Of a stretch of DNA of 64,000 bases, positions 3,373-45,548 are shown piece after piece (positions within the stretch are counted from its first letter, which is position 1; each line of letters opens with the position of its first letter). Origin of the DNA: Arthrobacter bambusae (GTDB taxonomy: Bacteria > Actinomycetota > Actinomycetes > Actinomycetales > Micrococcaceae); the NCBI RefSeq assembly GCF_022606295.1, contig NZ_JAHHZS010000001.1, forward strand, positions 1 to 64,000, read 5' to 3'. Both the position numbers and the translations under genes were made by a program. Under the pieces are notes generated by a model. The model was given only the letters and a program-made list of their open reading frames with translations. It was not told where the DNA came from and ran no database searches.

Positions 3373-4178
3373 TTTCCGTGATCCGTGCGTTCCGCAGCGA
3401 AGTGCCCAAGTTCCGCCGTTGGAGTGTTTTGGCGGTCGCGGGAGCCATGCTGGTGGTGAGCACCTTTATCGCTTATCTGACGTTCCACCAGATCGCATCC
3501 GGAGCCACGGGGCGCGAGATGGCAGGCCTGATTACCGCGTTCCCCACACCCCAGGGATTGGTCTCGATCATTGGCCAGGCCCGATCCTTGATCATTGCCA
3601 TCGCGCTGGTGATGGTGACAGCCAATCTCGCCGCGGAATGGTCCCAAGGGACGCTGCGCAACTTGTTGGTCTGTGAGCCGCGGCGGCTGCGGTGGTTGGC
3701 GGGCAAGATGCTGGCACTAGTGCTTTTCGTGCTGCTCTCGATGCTGCTCACCCTGCTCATCAGCGGCACATTCATCCTCGTGGTTGCCCAAGGCCAAGGG
3801 ATTCAGACGGCTGCCTGGACCTCTCCGGAGGGTCTGCGGGTCTTCCTGGCGTTCTTGGGCAATGAGGTGCTGTGCCTCGTCGGGGTGAGTGCCCTGGGCA
3901 TGCTCATCGCCATACTCACCCGTTCGGTCGCGGCCGGCGTCGGAATCGCCTTGGCCTACATCCTGGTGGTCGAAGGCATCATCGCGGTGGTATTGCCGCA
4001 GGTCACCCAGTGGTTCCCGGGCCGGGTGTTCAACACCATTGTGGGGACCGCTGTGCCCCTGGTTGGCCCGGAACCGCCCCAGGGCTACCCGGCGGCCCTG
4101 GGCGCAGCACTCTTGTGGATTGCCGTCTTCGTTGTGGTGAGCGCCGTCGTCTTCCCACGCCAGGACGTCAAAGCGTGA
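3369..4178 (+). CDS. ABC-2 type exporter, permease subunit
   Basis: A 269-aa integral membrane protein with about six TM helices and the ABC-2 layout. The N-terminus MISVIRAFRSEVPKFRRW is followed by TM1, and the EWSQGTLRNLLVCEPRRLRW stretch is the conserved cytosolic segment after TM2. The start at 3369 overlaps the ATPase stop; a longer in-frame reading from 3240 lies inside the ATPase gene and is rejected. It forms the pore of the exporter with the ATPase encoded just upstream. Confidence 0.88.
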   Translation: MISVIRAFRSEVPKFRRWSVLAVAGAMLVVSTFIAYLTFHQIASGATGREMAGLITAFPTPQGLVSIIGQARSLIIAIALVMVTANLAAEWSQGTLRNLLVCEPRRLRWLAGKMLALVLFVLLSMLLTLLISGTFILVVAQGQGIQTAAWTSPEGLRVFLAFLGNEVLCLVGVSALGMLIAILTRSVAAGVGIALAYILVVEGIIAVVLPQVTQWFPGRVFNTIVGTAVPLVGPEPPQGYPAALGAALLWIAVFVVVSAVVFPRQDVKA

Positions 4179-4707
4179 CGGATCGAGCGCGAGGCGAGGC
4201 TTCCGGCGTCGTCGGCAACGAGCGCCTCACCGCACTGACAGGTGCGGTGGTGCTGGTGCTGTCGGTGGCGGAGATCGCTACCGTTCCGACCCTGGGCAGC
4301 CTGATGGTGGCCCACTTCTTCGTTGGCGTGCTCCTGGCGGGCCCGGTGGTGGCCAAGACGGCCAGCACCGGCTGGCGGTTCATTCGCTACTACTCGCGGG
4401 ATCCCGCCTACCGCCGCAAGGGGCCGCCCCGGCCGCTTCTGCGAGTGATCGCTCCGCTGCTCGTCGCGTCGACGACTGGCGCCCCACCCCTCTGCAGAAG
4501 CGCGGGAAACCCGAGCGGTTGCGATGCCGGATACGCCTGGCGGCCAACATTACGGCGCTTGCGCTGGCTGGGATCCCTGCCGTGCTGCTTCTGCCGACAG
4601 CCCCATCATGGGAAGGGTGGCGCGGTCAGGCCGTGACCGGGCCCGGGGTCCTCGCCGTCGTAGTGGGCATTGTGACCGCGGTTGCGGTGTTGCTCAAGCG
4701 CCGCTGA
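4175..4707 (+). pseudogene. Frameshifted membrane protein gene following the ABC exporter
   Basis: A GTG at 4175 overlaps the permease stop (GTGA) and starts a frame with two clear hydrophobic segments, GNERLTALTGAVVLVLSVAE and HFFVGVLLAGPVVAKTASTG, then FIRYYSRDPAYRRKGPPRP. This resembles cytochrome b561/ferric-reductase-like actinobacterial membrane proteins. After LLRVIAPLLVAS (about 4472) the frame becomes non-membrane-like and stops at 4636. A neighbouring frame then carries a plausible tail, AANITALALAGIPAVLLLP, plus a last TM ending in LLKRR at 4707. The simplest reading is a gene broken by an internal deletion and frameshift near 4470-4490. The alternative is two short separate genes. 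Confidence 0.55.
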
Positions 4708-41089: not shown

Positions 41090-42847
41090 TCATGGAAGGC
41101 TGACACGGAGAACCACGTCGCCGCCATCCTGGCTCAGCGTTACCTCCTTGCACAGGGCCTGAAGCGTCGTCATTCCGAGGTTGGGGCGGATCCGGCCCCT
41201 GAGACGGCCAGGCGAACTGATGCTTATGTGAAGGGCCCCGTTGTCCGTTGACATTGTGACGCGGACATTGTTTCGTTCACCGTGGCGGATGGCGTTGGTG
41301 AAGCCTTCTGAGAGCACTTCGATGACTGCCTCAGCCCTGGCAGCGTCCTCGTCACATAAGGCCCACACACCAGGGTCGATGTCGCAGCACAGCTTCAGAA
41401 CGCGCCCCCAGGTACTCAGCAGGTCCTGGATACTCGCTGCTCCGCGCACCGACTGCCCGGGCGACTCCTCCAGGATCTCACTTTCCGCAGCAGCTATGGC
41501 ACACCGCAGGATGTCCCTCACCCGCGGCGGGGCAAGATCCTTTTCGTGATCGTTCCCTCCGGAAGCAGTCAATGCGAGGGCACTCGAAACCAGGTTTCCC
41601 TGAAGGTTGGTGTGCAGAATCCGGGCGACCCGCCGGCGGGTGTGGAGCAGCTTGTGGTGCGCGCGGTCGGCTAGCTTGAGTTGCTCGTTGAGCGAGCGTG
41701 CCAGCCTGACCTCATGCCGCCGTCGTTGGCTCTCGGCAGCTCGAAGAACCGCCACCGTGAGCGCAGTCAGCGGATAGGCCCAGATGGCGGACCAGTAGAA
41801 GTACGGGGCATAGCCGAATGCGTCCTGCAGCAGGCAGGTCACCGACGCTCCAATTGCGGCCGTGCCCGCGTAGCAGAGGGTCATGGCGGAGATTCGCCGC
41901 AGGGGACTGGTGATCCCCCGCACCGTCCGGGCCGTCGCGGCGTTTCCGGCGAGCAGAATGGCCCCGCCCACAACCCACTGAACCAGCAGGAAGAGAACGT
42001 CGTATTCGGTCAGCAGACGCACTGAGATGAGTGATTCGAAGAGCAGCACAGGCAATGCGAGCGGTGAAGCCTGGATCAAATCCGTGAGTCGCTCGGTGCG
42101 TTCTGCCCGGGAGGGCCGCTGCGGAGGGGCCGTGTCATGGGGCCAAGGTGAGTGGTCGTGGAAGAGCTGGTGGCTCATCGGGCGGACGACGTCATCGGAG
42201 ATCGTCCGCAGCAGGCGTGAGGCCTCGGCTCTGTCGAGGCTTGTCATCATCCCGGCAGGGAGGGCCGCGTCAAGGCGTGAGGAGAGTTCGGTGACATAGT
42301 CGGATCGGATCGAGCGCAGACGGTTCTCATCGAATCCGAGCTGCGTCTCGATCGCTGCCCGCGCGGCGCGGAGCCGGCGTTCAAGCACGGCGTGCCCGCG
42401 GATGCAGTCCGTCAGAATAGCAATCGCCGAAAGGAAAACCAGGGCCATCCCGACGTTGATGAGGATGCGGGCCCAGAGATTTTCGCTGAGGTCCGCAATG
42501 TTCAGAACCTGCGCGGACCAGGCGACGAGGACCGGGCGGCAGGCGCCCAACAACGCGAAGGTGCCGAACGCCGTCGTGATCCTGCCCTTAAGGCTCGGGC
42601 GTGCCGTGATCAAAGGGCGGAGGAGTATCCCCAAAAGACCAAGCATGACGTGCGCAAGAAGCAGGATCGCGATGCCGGCACTTTCCCCCACCATCGTGGC
42701 CGATCCGGTCCCGGACAGCGTGTTCGATCCGGCGAACACGTTCATGACAGTCAGCGACAAGGGCAGGGTCAGAAGCCACGACCAGAGACTCAGGGCATTG
42801 TCACCGCCGATGCCCCGGGCCCAGAGTGCAGGGGAGCGGCCGCTCAT
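41090..42847 (-). CDS. Membrane-bound sensor histidine kinase (NarL-system type, divergent DHp)
   Basis: A 585-aa protein with about four N-terminal TM helices (to ~residue 150), a cytosolic helical part, further TM helices (~255-360), then the kinase. The probable phospho-His is in RRVARILHTNLQGNLVSSAL, where the usual acidic residue after His is Thr. The HATPase N-box is EVLSEGFTNAIRHGERNNVR and the G-region RIRPNLGMTTLQALC. Two separate membrane blocks are uncommon. Its start overlaps the stop of the response-regulator gene (ATGA), so the two form one operon. Confidence 0.82.
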   Translation of the reverse strand: MSGRSPALWARGIGGDNALSLWSWLLTLPLSLTVMNVFAGSNTLSGTGSATMVGESAGIAILLLAHVMLGLLGILLRPLITARPSLKGRITTAFGTFALLGACRPVLVAWSAQVLNIADLSENLWARILINVGMALVFLSAIAILTDCIRGHAVLERRLRAARAAIETQLGFDENRLRSIRSDYVTELSSRLDAALPAGMMTSLDRAEASRLLRTISDDVVRPMSHQLFHDHSPWPHDTAPPQRPSRAERTERLTDLIQASPLALPVLLFESLISVRLLTEYDVLFLLVQWVVGGAILLAGNAATARTVRGITSPLRRISAMTLCYAGTAAIGASVTCLLQDAFGYAPYFYWSAIWAYPLTALTVAVLRAAESQRRRHEVRLARSLNEQLKLADRAHHKLLHTRRRVARILHTNLQGNLVSSALALTASGGNDHEKDLAPPRVRDILRCAIAAAESEILEESPGQSVRGAASIQDLLSTWGRVLKLCCDIDPGVWALCDEDAARAEAVIEVLSEGFTNAIRHGERNNVRVTMSTDNGALHISISSPGRLRGRIRPNLGMTTLQALCKEVTLSQDGGDVVLRVSLP

Positions 42848-43503
42848 TTGTCGCTATCGGCAGGGTCCGGCCACCCGAACGTGCGCGCATACAGCGTCGC
42901 TGCGGCAACACGCGGGTTCACGCCCGGAATTCGGTTCAAGCCGAGCGCCTCGAACGTGCGCGAAACGGCCTTCTCCACGGATCGCATGCTGCTTCCCCGT
43001 TGTTTCGCGATTTCAGCGTTGGACCAGCCCTCCGCAATCATGCGCAGGATATCCAGCTGTACACGCGTCAACGCGCCGATCCGCGCTGCGTCCGCCGACA
43101 AAGTGGGAGTCACGGTGACCGGAAGCTCCACCAAGGTTGAATTCACGGCATTGATGAGGCCGTCCACGGAGTCAAGGGACGACTTGTTGACGAAAGTCGA
43201 TCCCGCCGGCAACTCGGAAAAGGCAGCCTCCGACGGATAGTTGGTGAGGAAAACGATCGCGCACCCCGGCGAGAGCGACCTCACCACATGCGCCAGTTCG
43301 ACGCCGTTGGGCCGGGTTCCCAGATCGATGTCCGTCACAAGAACATCGGGATCGACGGCGGCAAACATGGAGATCGCCTCGGACGCGGACGCGCAGTCAT
43401 GGACGTCGAATTCCGCGCCCCTCAAGGCCTCGGCGACCAGCCCGCGCATGAATGGTTGATCTTCGACAACCAGCACCCGCCGAACCCACCCCACAGCCCC
43501 CAT
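42844..43503 (-). CDS. LuxR/NarL-type response regulator
   Basis: A 219-aa protein. Receiver domain: RRVLVVEDQPFMRGLVAEAL, phospho-acceptor Asp in DVLVTDIDLGTRPNGVELA, conserved Lys in FVNKSS. HTH: RVQLDILRMIAEGWSNAEIA followed by KQRGSSMRSVEKAVSRTFEA. Cognate of the kinase encoded next. The ribosome site before ATG 43503 is weak and a later GTG might be used. Target genes are unknown; the operon lies beside small membrane-protein genes. Confidence 0.88.
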   Translation of the reverse strand: MGAVGWVRRVLVVEDQPFMRGLVAEALRGAEFDVHDCASASEAISMFAAVDPDVLVTDIDLGTRPNGVELAHVVRSLSPGCAIVFLTNYPSEAAFSELPAGSTFVNKSSLDSVDGLINAVNSTLVELPVTVTPTLSADAARIGALTRVQLDILRMIAEGWSNAEIAKQRGSSMRSVEKAVSRTFEALGLNRIPGVNPRVAAATLYARTFGWPDPADSDK

Positions 43504-43642: not shown

Positions 43643-43786
43643 TCAGTGGCGGAGGGCGATCGTGACAACGACGCCCGTGGCGACAGCCAGAATCGCCAAT
43701 CCAACGTAGGACAGTCTCCGCTGAAACCTTCTCCGACGCTCACGCCGTTCATCCCTGGCCAGATATCCCGTTCTGTAGTTCCCCAT
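43643..43786 (-). CDS. Tiny basic single-TM protein (47 aa)
   Basis: It reads MGNYRTGYLARDERRERRRR, FQRRLSYVGLAILAVATGVV and VTIALRH. The basic N-terminus, YVGLAILA(V/L)ATxVVVxIALR helix and exact length of 47 match the protein at 61570-61713. Upstream residues of the longer frame are not protein-like, so the ATG at 43786 is chosen. Function unknown. It is monocistronic, between the response-regulator promoter and another small membrane gene. Confidence 0.6.
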   Translation of the reverse strand: MGNYRTGYLARDERRERRRRFQRRLSYVGLAILAVATGVVVTIALRH

Positions 43787-43859
43787 GCCGCGAGGATATC
43801 GCCGCTGAATCTGCGCTCGCCTGCCGGGGTTCGGGTATTGCGACCGGGTTGGCTGCCGC

Positions 43860-44173
43860 CTACCCGTCCTTCCCATCGTTGTTGAGAAGGTCCGGGATAT
43901 GGTTTCGAAGTATGTGTGCTGCGATGCCCAGAGCTACGAGTGATGCGCTCAGTAGGGCAAGCCAGACGCGCACGACTGAACCGATGAAGCCTGTCAGCCA
44001 TAGCCCGACGCCCGCGCCGGCCCCGCCTTGGAGGGGAAAAGAAGCGAACGTAAGTTTGTGGCCAACGTTTCGAAGAGCATTCCGCCCGTGCAGACAATGA
44101 CGCCAACAATGAGCAGCCGGTTTCTTACCTGGGTAAAAAATATGTGGTGTTTGCGATTGAAGTTCCGATTCAT
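43860..44173 (-). pseudogene. Small two-TM membrane protein interrupted by a -1 frameshift
   Basis: From ATG 44173 (GGGGACTAAAA upstream) the frame reads MNRNFNRKHHIFFTQVRNRL, then a TM helix LIVGVIVCTGGMLFETLA, and NLRSLLFP, but soon stops at 44024. The -1 frame continues with LQGGAGAGVGLWLTGFIGSV, VRVWLALLSASLVALGIAAH and ILRNHIPDLLNNDGKDG to 43860. Together they give a sensible ~104-aa protein with two helices. The junction lies at T-TTC-CCC-T, a heptamer on which both tRNAs can re-pair in the -1 frame. It is either a pseudogene, a sequencing error, or programmed slippage. Confidence 0.5.
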
Positions 44174-44195
44174 TTTTAGTCCCCGCCTGACCTAA

Positions 44196-44225
44196 GGAGC
44201 GCCCCACCCTGCGGTGGGACGCTCC
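44196..44225. terminator. Strong hairpin, probable terminator
   Basis: GGAGCGCCCCACC (44196-44208), loop CTGC, GGTGGGACGCTCC (44213-44225), one mismatch. No long T-tract follows on either strand. It stands after the stop of the 76-aa membrane-protein gene and would isolate the secreted-protein operon from the next minus-strand gene. Confidence 0.6.
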
Positions 44226-44261
44226 CCTCCGCGCCATGATTGGGCATCGTCGATCGAGGGA

Positions 44262-44492
44262 CTAGGAAGGCGGCTCCCGGTAGGCGTGCACCATCGGGTC
44301 GGTGCGCTCGAGCTCGGCTGCGAGTGCACGTGCGGCCTTCTTCCTCCTGTGAAGAACTGCTTCATTGACCACGTACAACACCAGAACCACCGATGGTAAG
44401 AGGATTCGAAGCCACAGGTCCCAATTGGTCATAAAAAGGATCGCCAGGGAAACCATAAAGATCGGCGGATGCGCGTAGCTGTACCATTTCAC
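44262..44492 (-). CDS. Small membrane protein (76 aa), partner of secreted protein
   Basis: It reads MKWYSYAHPPIFMVSLAILF and has two TM helices (VSLAILFMTNWDLWLR and LLPSVVLVLYVVNEAVL) followed by a basic/acidic cytosolic tail with RRKKAARALAAELERTD. It begins 12 nt after the stop of the secreted protein gene, so the two are one operon ended by the hairpin at 44196-44225. Size and topology resemble immunity proteins of bacteriocin operons, but this is a shape argument only. Confidence 0.6.
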   Translation of the reverse strand: MKWYSYAHPPIFMVSLAILFMTNWDLWLRILLPSVVLVLYVVNEAVLHRRKKAARALAAELERTDPMVHAYREPPS

Positions 44493-44504
44493 GATTGCCT
44501 TCTC

Positions 44505-45548
44505 TCAGAAGCCGCAGTCTCGCCCAGGCATATCCCGTAGCGGAGAGGACGGGTTGGAAAGATTAATGCCATAGCACTTTGTGGCAACAAGGTTGGCACC
44601 CCTAAACGTGCCATTGATGATAGCGATCACAGACGCAACACCACCCACGCCGATCACGGTACAAATCTGGCTCACGACTTTTGCGATCCACCCGGTCAGC
44701 TTGCTGAATGTGCAGCCTGCCCACGTTCCGCCGACGAAAACCGTGGCCGTGAGGCCCGCTAGTACCTGCAACTCGGCGCCGCTGATCGCGAGGACTGGCC
44801 ACGGTACCCACTGAATGCTCGGATCGGCCGTTATGGGAAATGCGTTCGAGGAATTGAAGTCAATGCGCTGAACTAAGGTACCGTCCTCAATCCTGAATGT
44901 CGTTGGCACCGGTTTGCCGTCGGCGTCGAATGCCCACGGGGAGACGAATGTGCCTGTAACTCTTCCCGCGGCGTCTCGAATGAGTACCGAACCGTCAGCT
45001 TCCACCTTCGCGGTGGATCCGGCCGAGAGAGCTAATGGGAATCGGTAATAGCGAGGTGCCTTGTCCGATTCGACTGTGATCAATGTTTGCGAGCCGTGTG
45101 GAATGCTGTAGGTGGTCGTTGTCGCGCCGGTCAGGGCGGTGGTCAAAAGTGGTGCGCCTTCGCCAATGAAGTGCCCGATCGGGACGCCCTTAAGCTGGGC
45201 AGGTTTCGTCTCTGACTTTTTGCCGGGAACGGTAATCCGTACCGAACCCGAGGGGGATTGCGTTTGGACAGTAGCACTTCCGGGGGCGTTCCCGTCCATC
45301 ACATACACGCCGTCGTGCTTCTTGGCGTTTTCATGCAGTGGACTGGCGCTTCGCCCGGGCGACAGCCCCTGATCCCACGCGACAGACTGGACTCCAAGGC
45401 TGGTATCGGCCCGTATCGGCTGATCTACCCGTTCCTGTAGTGTCGTGCTTCTTTGAGCAGTACCTGCCTGTGCCGGTGCGGCAATAAGGATGGTCGCAAT
45501 CAAAGACAGGCATGCGGTAGCTGAGGCAATAATATGTAGACGCTGCAA
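44505..45548 (-). CDS. Secreted protein of unknown function with hydrophobic Gly-rich C-terminus
   Basis: A 347-aa protein with a Sec signal peptide (cleavage after APAQA, about residue 28). The middle is beta-rich (VYVMDGNAPGSATVQTQSPS, VLIRDAAGRVTGTFVSPWAF) and passes into SNAFPITADPSIQWVPWPVL, a 'variable tail' junction seen in many actinobacterial secreted proteins. The last ~90 residues are strongly hydrophobic and Gly-rich (LAGLTATVFVGGTWAGCTFS, AKVVSQICTVIGVGGVASVI) with four Cys, ending MPGRDCGF. Toxin/bacteriocin-like delivery with the adjacent small membrane protein as immunity is a hypothesis. Confidence 0.7.
   Translation of the reverse strand: MQRLHIIASATACLSLIATILIAAPAQAGTAQRSTTLQERVDQPIRADTSLGVQSVAWDQGLSPGRSASPLHENAKKHDGVYVMDGNAPGSATVQTQSPSGSVRITVPGKKSETKPAQLKGVPIGHFIGEGAPLLTTALTGATTTTYSIPHGSQTLITVESDKAPRYYRFPLALSAGSTAKVEADGSVLIRDAAGRVTGTFVSPWAFDADGKPVPTTFRIEDGTLVQRIDFNSSNAFPITADPSIQWVPWPVLAISGAELQVLAGLTATVFVGGTWAGCTFSKLTGWIAKVVSQICTVIGVGGVASVIAIINGTFRGANLVATKCYGINLSNPSSPLRDMPGRDCGF

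Follow-up and report, generated by a model that had tools for sequence, protein, structure and literature searches.

The gene pair and its products

The question raised by this locus is what is encoded by two adjacent genes lying on the minus strand at about positions 44,196–45,548 of a 64,000-nucleotide stretch of DNA of the soil actinobacterium Arthrobacter bambusae (contig NZ_JAHHZS010000001.1, positions 1 to 64,000; hereafter, the window). The original prediction was a possible pair of secreted toxin and membrane immunity protein, of the bacteriocin type. The results below make it very likely, as judged from sequence comparisons, that the pair consists of a polymorphic toxin and its immunity protein. 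The first gene is best read as encoding a polymorphic toxin of the MafB-like kind whose actinobacterial carrier is new, an architecture that is well supported, and the toxin would probably be membrane-active from outside. The features of the pair, all on the minus strand, are the following.

44505–45548, minus strand: coding sequence of the predicted secreted polymorphic toxin, 347 amino acids (aa), TTG start, stop codon included
45465–45548, minus strand: predicted Sec signal peptide, residues 1–28 (...APAQA/G), read by eye
45276–45464, minus strand: linker, residues 29–91; predicted local distance difference test (pLDDT) <50 at residues 23–81 and 86–90
44820–45275, minus strand: carrier domain, residues 92–243, a beta-sandwich according to alignment and AlphaFold2, ending in FPITADP
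44508–44819, minus strand: C-terminal domain, putatively toxic, residues 244–347, hydrophobic, Cys at 279, 296, 325 and 345
44262–44492, minus strand: predicted membrane immunity gene ImmA, 76 aa, GTG start
44194–44227, minus strand: 15-bp hairpin 3′ of ImmA, found by folding; probable end of the operon transcript

The TTG start of the toxin open reading frame (ORF; 45548–44505) is preceded by AGGAG, and the GTG start of ImmA by GAGAAGG; the gap between the toxin stop and ImmA is 12 nt, as originally described. Compared with the copy in the related genome G054, the ratios of nonsynonymous to synonymous substitution (dN/dS) were 0.28 for the carrier, 0.09 for the C-terminus and 0.44 for ImmA. 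The toxin coding sequence is thus under purifying selection, and these substitution patterns indicate that both frames are real genes rather than chance ORFs. The hairpin behind ImmA (44227–44194) has 15 bp and a loop of 4, without a U-tract. Its region has a minimum free energy of −45.4 (z −2.67), equalled in 2 of 200 shuffles, so that the strong hairpin of the original prediction was found again; it was not among the predictions of a consensus terminator scan. It is the probable end of the operon transcript. The genome of the window strain holds only one copy of the carrier.

Concerning the secreted protein, the signal peptide looks typical by eye, with no lipobox seen in it. The beta-rich body seen at first corresponds in the AlphaFold2 model to strands throughout residues 92–242, with pLDDT 83–96 in the block from 131 to 240 and a mean of 69.7 for the whole model. 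Among 21 aligned carrier rows, W205, A206, D208, T216, Q227, A241, D242 and P243 are invariant; the last three belong to the junction motif, FPITADP in the window protein and YPVVADP in the consensus. The 104-aa C-terminus is hydrophobic, Gly-rich and Cys-containing, as anticipated (grand average of hydropathy 0.69, 13.5% Gly, 4 Cys), and is modeled as helical and hydrophobic with short strands at its end.

The original reader recognized no family for either protein, and the searches agree with this. The window protein gave no significant match in Pfam (E up to 1) or NCBIfam, and neither collection has a significant model for the carrier, for the window-type C-terminus or for its partner; ImmA gave one Pfam row well under the cut-off (E 0.28). 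For the full toxin model, Foldseek gave nothing at E up to 0.001 (the top score being 4.3e-3), and the best VIA match was a heparan-sulfate lyase (Z 8.0), with many ties. Among PDB sequences, there was one match at E 0.84 with the profile of the C-terminus and none with that of the carrier. With structure matches so weak and tied, neither a glycan-binding carrier nor a new fold is claimed.

ImmA was originally described as a protein with two transmembrane (TM) segments. One hydrophobic segment, at about residues 24–49, is clear (best score 1.93), while the other, at 10–28, is weaker (1.46), so two TM segments are likely rather than certain. With the threshold used, two segments were found in five of the eight members of the ImmA family, one in two members (that of the window included) and none in one.

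Exchange of C-terminal domains behind a constant carrier

A search with the whole protein covered 99 genomes, including that of the window strain, and gave matches in 18 of them, many with only partial coverage. The reference for the family was a profile, A1, that covers the carrier as far as ADP; it was built with 21 of 25 carrier segments, after exclusion of four near-duplicates, and its matches were counted at E up to 0.001. They occurred in 33 of 206 genomes of the genus, 61 of 297 sampled genomes of the order, 42 of 296 of the class and 16 of 246 of the phylum. Some of them, chiefly at the class and phylum levels, have weak to moderate E-values and fall within frames about 900–4,300 aa long. 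In the three large frames inspected (3,054, 3,392 and 912 aa; L060, L062 and L120), DNRLRE follows 28–86 residues past the A1 match, and 5 of the 20 plasmid matches among those listed are annotated as DNRLRE. The large DNRLRE-containing proteins (NF033679) are presumably related to Rhs/WapA toxins; a carrier-like domain placed before DNRLRE may thus tie the small toxins to Rhs/WapA-like ones. A related pair is present on a named plasmid of Arthrobacter sp. ERGS1:01, where the toxin is 44% identical over query residues 90–345 and the partner is 38% identical to ImmA (E 5.7e-14), the partner gene being missing from the PLSDB gene table.

From 176 frames matching A1, 116 were kept after dropping those with the model end <220, a C-terminal domain (cargo) <50 aa, a protein >900 aa or an identical cargo. 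Exclusion of two cargos >200 aa left 114 distinct C-termini of 50–200 aa; the set includes some truncated or frameshifted rows (e.g. L130, L147, L155 and L167). Clustering by BLASTP single linkage at 1e-4 separated these 114 C-termini, all behind a single carrier profile, into 23 clusters: one of 55 members (the window type), one of 26, three with 3 members each, six with 2 each and twelve singletons.

The alignments used below cover 50 (A2) or 53 (A4) of the 55 window-type members and all 59 others (A3). In the latter, Pfam found DUF2599 in 22 members, a prokaryotic phospholipase A2 in one (2.5e-10) and, under the gathering score, EndoU in two (best E 1.6e-4) and DUF4258 in two (2.3e-4; L039 and L127). 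Single weak rows (DUF2553, 0.0017; Patatin, 0.0052; NCBIfam PepSY) were given no weight. The cluster of 26 is the DUF2599 cluster: the members inspected singly (L024, L047, L157 and L112) were above cut-off, with the exceptions of L107 and L138, under the gathering score, and L101, with no match. A further type is named here WHH-like after a YQWHH motif; Pfam returned nothing for one such member, L151. The 50 window-type members gave ten Pfam families, each in one or two members at E 0.0098 or worse, and zero NCBIfam matches.

The window-type cargo is mostly 82–112 aa long and hydrophobic, with 2–6 Cys. Of the 55 C-termini, 54 have 2, 4 or 6 Cys and the remaining one has 3, and alignment A4 shows one invariant and a near-invariant last Cys. 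Even counts make it probable that these residues are paired as disulfides. AlphaFold2 models the cargo with strands, at least two hydrophobic helices and, at the C-terminus, a short pair of strands. A glycine zipper is not claimed: GxxxG occurs at 274, 313 and 342, and the main helix has no long zipper. A cargo-profile search matched 30 of the 297 order genomes, mostly within carrier frames. In L222 a protein of about 160 aa consists of signal peptide, short pro-region and cargo, without the carrier; L224 is similarly carrier-less, with a less clear N-terminus.

Linkage of the downstream gene to the cargo

The first ORF chooser used for the downstream genes favored TM ORFs, so the association counts were obtained with a TM-blind chooser; the assignment of partner families is still based on the first one. 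Of 113 carrier genes, 66 have within 100 nt downstream a TM ORF of ≤160 aa with a Shine-Dalgarno sequence. Among 167 long control ORFs, taken from the window and the fetched loci, the same holds for 3 (Fisher 2.8e-29); 14 further controls are followed by a TM ORF >160 aa. A soluble ORF follows 13 of the 113 carrier genes. With the TM-blind chooser, small TM partners were found for 36 of the 55 window-type genes and 17 of the 26 in the DUF2599 cluster, and soluble partners for both EndoU genes, both DUF4258-like genes and two of two testable WHH-like genes (of three). The architecture recurs on a Clavibacter capsici plasmid, with a DUF4258-like cargo and then a DUF2283 protein (1.6e-10), to which the proteins downstream of the DUF4258-like members L039 and L127 are related. 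Taking into account that DUF2599 is a common cargo on this carrier and that its cluster often precedes a small membrane gene, it seems reasonable to suggest that DUF2599, the second commonest cargo here, is a toxin domain.

A downstream ORF was available in 110 of the 114 loci, giving 5,995 pairs for comparison. The downstream proteins were related in 48 pairs, and in all 48 the C-termini were related as well; 2,000 permutations gave a mean of 2.5 such pairs and a maximum of 9. Pairs with unrelated C-termini had related downstream genes in 0 of 5,678 cases. Since the 688 pairs with carriers ≥40% identical were mostly short alignments, they were recounted with at least 150 aligned positions: of the 28 pairs with related cargo, 17 then had related partners, as against 0 of the 24 with unrelated cargo. 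So, on these sequence comparisons, it can be said that the partner gene tracks the cargo and not the carrier. The test proposed at the outset, i.e. proteins sharing the N-terminal part and differing in their C-termini and small membrane partners, thus came out positively over 114 distinct C-termini, and the opposite outcome, a C-terminus always conserved with the N-terminal part and no linked membrane gene, did not occur.

Allele replacement, disrupted copies and orphan immunity genes

Two sister loci, L174 and L175, have DNA flanks 82–85% identical to those of the window. The first 91–92 codons of the toxin gene are kept; signal peptide and linker are the part common to this alternative allele (residues 1–91/92, 79–84% identical), and the sequences are unrelated thereafter. 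Past this leader, L174 and L175 have an unrelated body and a different membrane gene of 92 aa, ImmB; the reading frame of the leader does not continue into the body in L175. Traces of the other allele are present in the window itself, beyond ImmA, followed by a small ORF.

43866–44134, minus strand: remnant of ImmB, a second immunity gene that is not cognate to this toxin; frameshifted, in two pieces and two frames
43643–43876, minus strand: 77-aa ORF with one C-terminal hydrophobic segment, conserved here, possibly outside the toxin module

Compared to the intact 92-aa gene of L174, the two pieces of the remnant are 61% and 79% identical (85–90% at the nt level).

ImmA was searched in the 206 genomes of the genus and found in 19 places of 18 genomes. 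A full-length window-type C-terminus is beside it in 4 of the 19 (among them G054, with a broken leader) and a cargo remnant in 2, while in 13 the four cargo queries used detected no cognate cargo over a range of about 1.5 kb. Identity to ImmA is ≥64% for six of these 13 copies; the less similar ones may go with a related cargo that the queries do not recognize. One orphan, 83% identical, is located behind the DUF2599-cluster toxin L107, and some others are near ImmB copies (L182, L185 and L195).

The 77-aa ORF is 67–83% identical in L158, L174, L175 and L176, and in-frame stops in the N-terminal part of its relatives suggest that its real start is internal. In L174, an additional ORF of 165 aa, lipoprotein-like (3918–4415, minus strand), separates ImmB from the 77-aa ORF. 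Directly beyond the toxin operon of the window, at 41090–43503 on the minus strand, there are genes for a histidine-kinase-like membrane protein and a response regulator of the LuxR type, which are kept in the sister loci examined (about 84–87% nt identity) and could regulate the toxin operon.

Alternative explanations

Three traits of polymorphic toxins are found in the family: a constant N-terminal part with exchangeable C-terminal domains; a directly downstream partner that segregates with the C-terminal domain; and orphan or multiple immunity genes, with cassette exchange at one locus. The closest alternative, possible although clearly less probable, is a freely diffusing bacteriocin precursor, in which the carrier would serve only as propeptide or chaperone and be removed outside, leaving a disulfide-bonded peptide of ~100 aa as the active bacteriocin. 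It differs from a polymorphic toxin in delivery and shares the same toxin/immunity logic. The size and hydrophobicity of the cargo and the signal peptide agree with it, as does the occurrence in L222 of the cargo with just a signal peptide and short pro-region (the N-terminus of L224 being less certain). The short secreted precursor of a class II-type bacteriocin is not what is found here, since the window protein has 347 aa with a 150-aa carrier; the carrier-less protein of L222 has ~160 aa. Moreover, RNase-like and phospholipase-like cargos occur on the same carrier in some relatives, on account of which a polymorphic toxin fits better than a plain bacteriocin, and the carrier-profile domain before DNRLRE in far larger proteins suggests something more than a throw-away propeptide.

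It is much less probable that the protein is not a weapon, i.e. that it is an envelope or adhesion protein docking to its own small membrane partner, with antigenic or phage-driven variability. The best carrier folds are weak beta-sandwich matches in carbohydrate-active and other proteins (the Z 8.0 match cited above), and toxin activity is so far a prediction from sequence. This explanation fits badly with the RNase- and phospholipase-like cargos and soluble partners within the same family, and disrupted toxins with a retained partner and orphan partner genes are hard to explain by it. An intracellular toxin–antitoxin or abortive-infection pair is the most improbable case: the compact two-gene operon and the DUF4258/DUF2283 pairs of some relatives recall such systems, while the signal peptides and the even numbers of Cys point to an extracytoplasmic protein.

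Several observations weigh against the interpretation as polymorphic toxin and immunity protein. The carrier is absent from most genomes searched, also within the genus. Of the 113 carrier genes, 31 have no Shine-Dalgarno-preceded ORF downstream and 3 have no ORF at all; for the window type, 4 genes are followed by a small soluble ORF, 13 lack the Shine-Dalgarno sequence and 2 lack any ORF. Related partners were found in only 48 of 317 pairs with related cargo (41 of 94 at ≥40% cargo identity), so that either partners vary more than cargos do or the chooser overlooked some of them. The toxin frame is disrupted in G054 and Arthrobacter sp. Hiyo8, close relatives that have the same pair, with ImmA intact in both. 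Between window and G054, ImmA has changed more quickly (68% aa identity) than the C-terminal part of the toxin (93%). The model of the cargo (pLDDT 69.7) had no Foldseek match at E ≤0.001, and its best VIA match was Z 2.9. Given such modest models, the arguments for membrane insertion are confined to hydrophobicity, probable Cys pairing and the membrane partner.

Proposed mode of action

As a polymorphic toxin, the protein would be exported by Sec, as its signal peptide indicates, and the exported cargo would act against related bacteria. The comparison of loci shows a constant carrier with a cargo that is exchanged past the ADP junction along with the partner gene; that the cargo is released at this junction is a conjecture prompted by its fixed position. 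The hydrophobicity, the probable disulfides and the small membrane partner of the window-type cargo suggest that it acts at the cytoplasmic membrane from outside, where it would probably insert into the target membrane and depolarize it. ImmA, judging from its linkage and its orphans, would block the toxin in the membranes of the producer and its siblings, and partner genes persist as orphans once their toxins decay or are swapped. An RNase-like cargo would have to reach the cytosol, and a hydrophobic stretch just past ADP could serve its entry; with the same threshold, such a segment is present in both EndoU, all three WHH-like and neither of the two DUF4258-like members.

A broader proposal, which we hold at about even confidence, is that the family is an overlooked actinobacterial class of Sec-secreted polymorphic toxins with a YPVVADP beta-sandwich carrier, whose two most frequent cargos, the hydrophobic-disulfide domain and DUF2599, both unassigned, kill at the membrane from outside, and whose cargo can also work by itself as a secreted bacteriocin, so that the class would bridge both kinds. 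If true, there would be a toxin class without a dedicated secretion machine in a phylum of central importance for the ecology of soils and the production of antibiotics, and a likely toxin-domain role for DUF2599. The family would also offer numerous matched combinations of cargo and partner, among them alleles exchanged naturally at a single locus, with which to study the way in which a secreted protein passes through or disrupts the cell envelope of competing Gram-positive bacteria.

Relationship to known systems

The carrier family is widespread in Actinobacteria and unnamed as far as the literature search reached. No paper on it was among the literature matches listed, in a search that did not cover preprints and most subscription journals. 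Judging by title, none of the articles retrieved for Arthrobacter and "polymorphic toxin" dealt with such a family, and none of the mentions of DUF2599 concerned toxins by title and start of the abstract.

In the survey of polymorphic toxins (PMC3482391), a variable C-terminus, an adjacent immunity gene and poly-immunity loci are described, all shared by the window family. The N-terminal domains seen there for the Sec route are MafB-N, Microscilla-N, APD1, APD2 and an inactive transglutaminase, this carrier not being among them, and Arthrobacter is absent from the text examined.

The closest likeness is to MafB/MafI of Neisseria, with secretion by signal peptide, a conserved N-terminal domain, a variable C-terminal toxin, including EndoU, and the immunity gene immediately downstream (PMC4287609). 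The window pair has the same order of parts: signal peptide, constant N-terminal part, variable C-terminal putative toxin and adjoining downstream immunity gene. Unlike MafB, the window protein has no MafB-N or other Pfam domain (E up to 1), MafB-N is not among the Pfam families listed for the 50 window-type members, and the family is actinobacterial with cargo mostly hydrophobic or DUF2599. On its upstream side the toxin gene adjoins a divergent oxidoreductase-like gene, no search having been aimed at relatives of MafA.

EsxX and TspA are LXG toxins of the type VII secretion system (T7SS) with a membrane-depolarizing C-terminus; EsxX has polytopic membrane immunity proteins, with orphans in non-producers (PMC12744356; PMC7456083 for TspA). 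The window family resembles EsxX in its predicted membrane immunity genes, found also as orphans, and in a C-terminus that would probably depolarize the membrane. Unlike LXG toxins, the window protein lacks an LXG/WXG domain (Pfam, E up to 1) and has a signal peptide and probable disulfides instead; EsxX has also a soluble immunity pair, unlike the window pair.

As for the DNRLRE proteins of Streptomyces and other Actinobacteria (NF033679), they share the carrier-profile domain, which is internal in them. Of the frames inspected, two exceed 3,000 aa and one has 912 aa, whereas in the window protein the carrier directly bears a cargo of ~100 aa.
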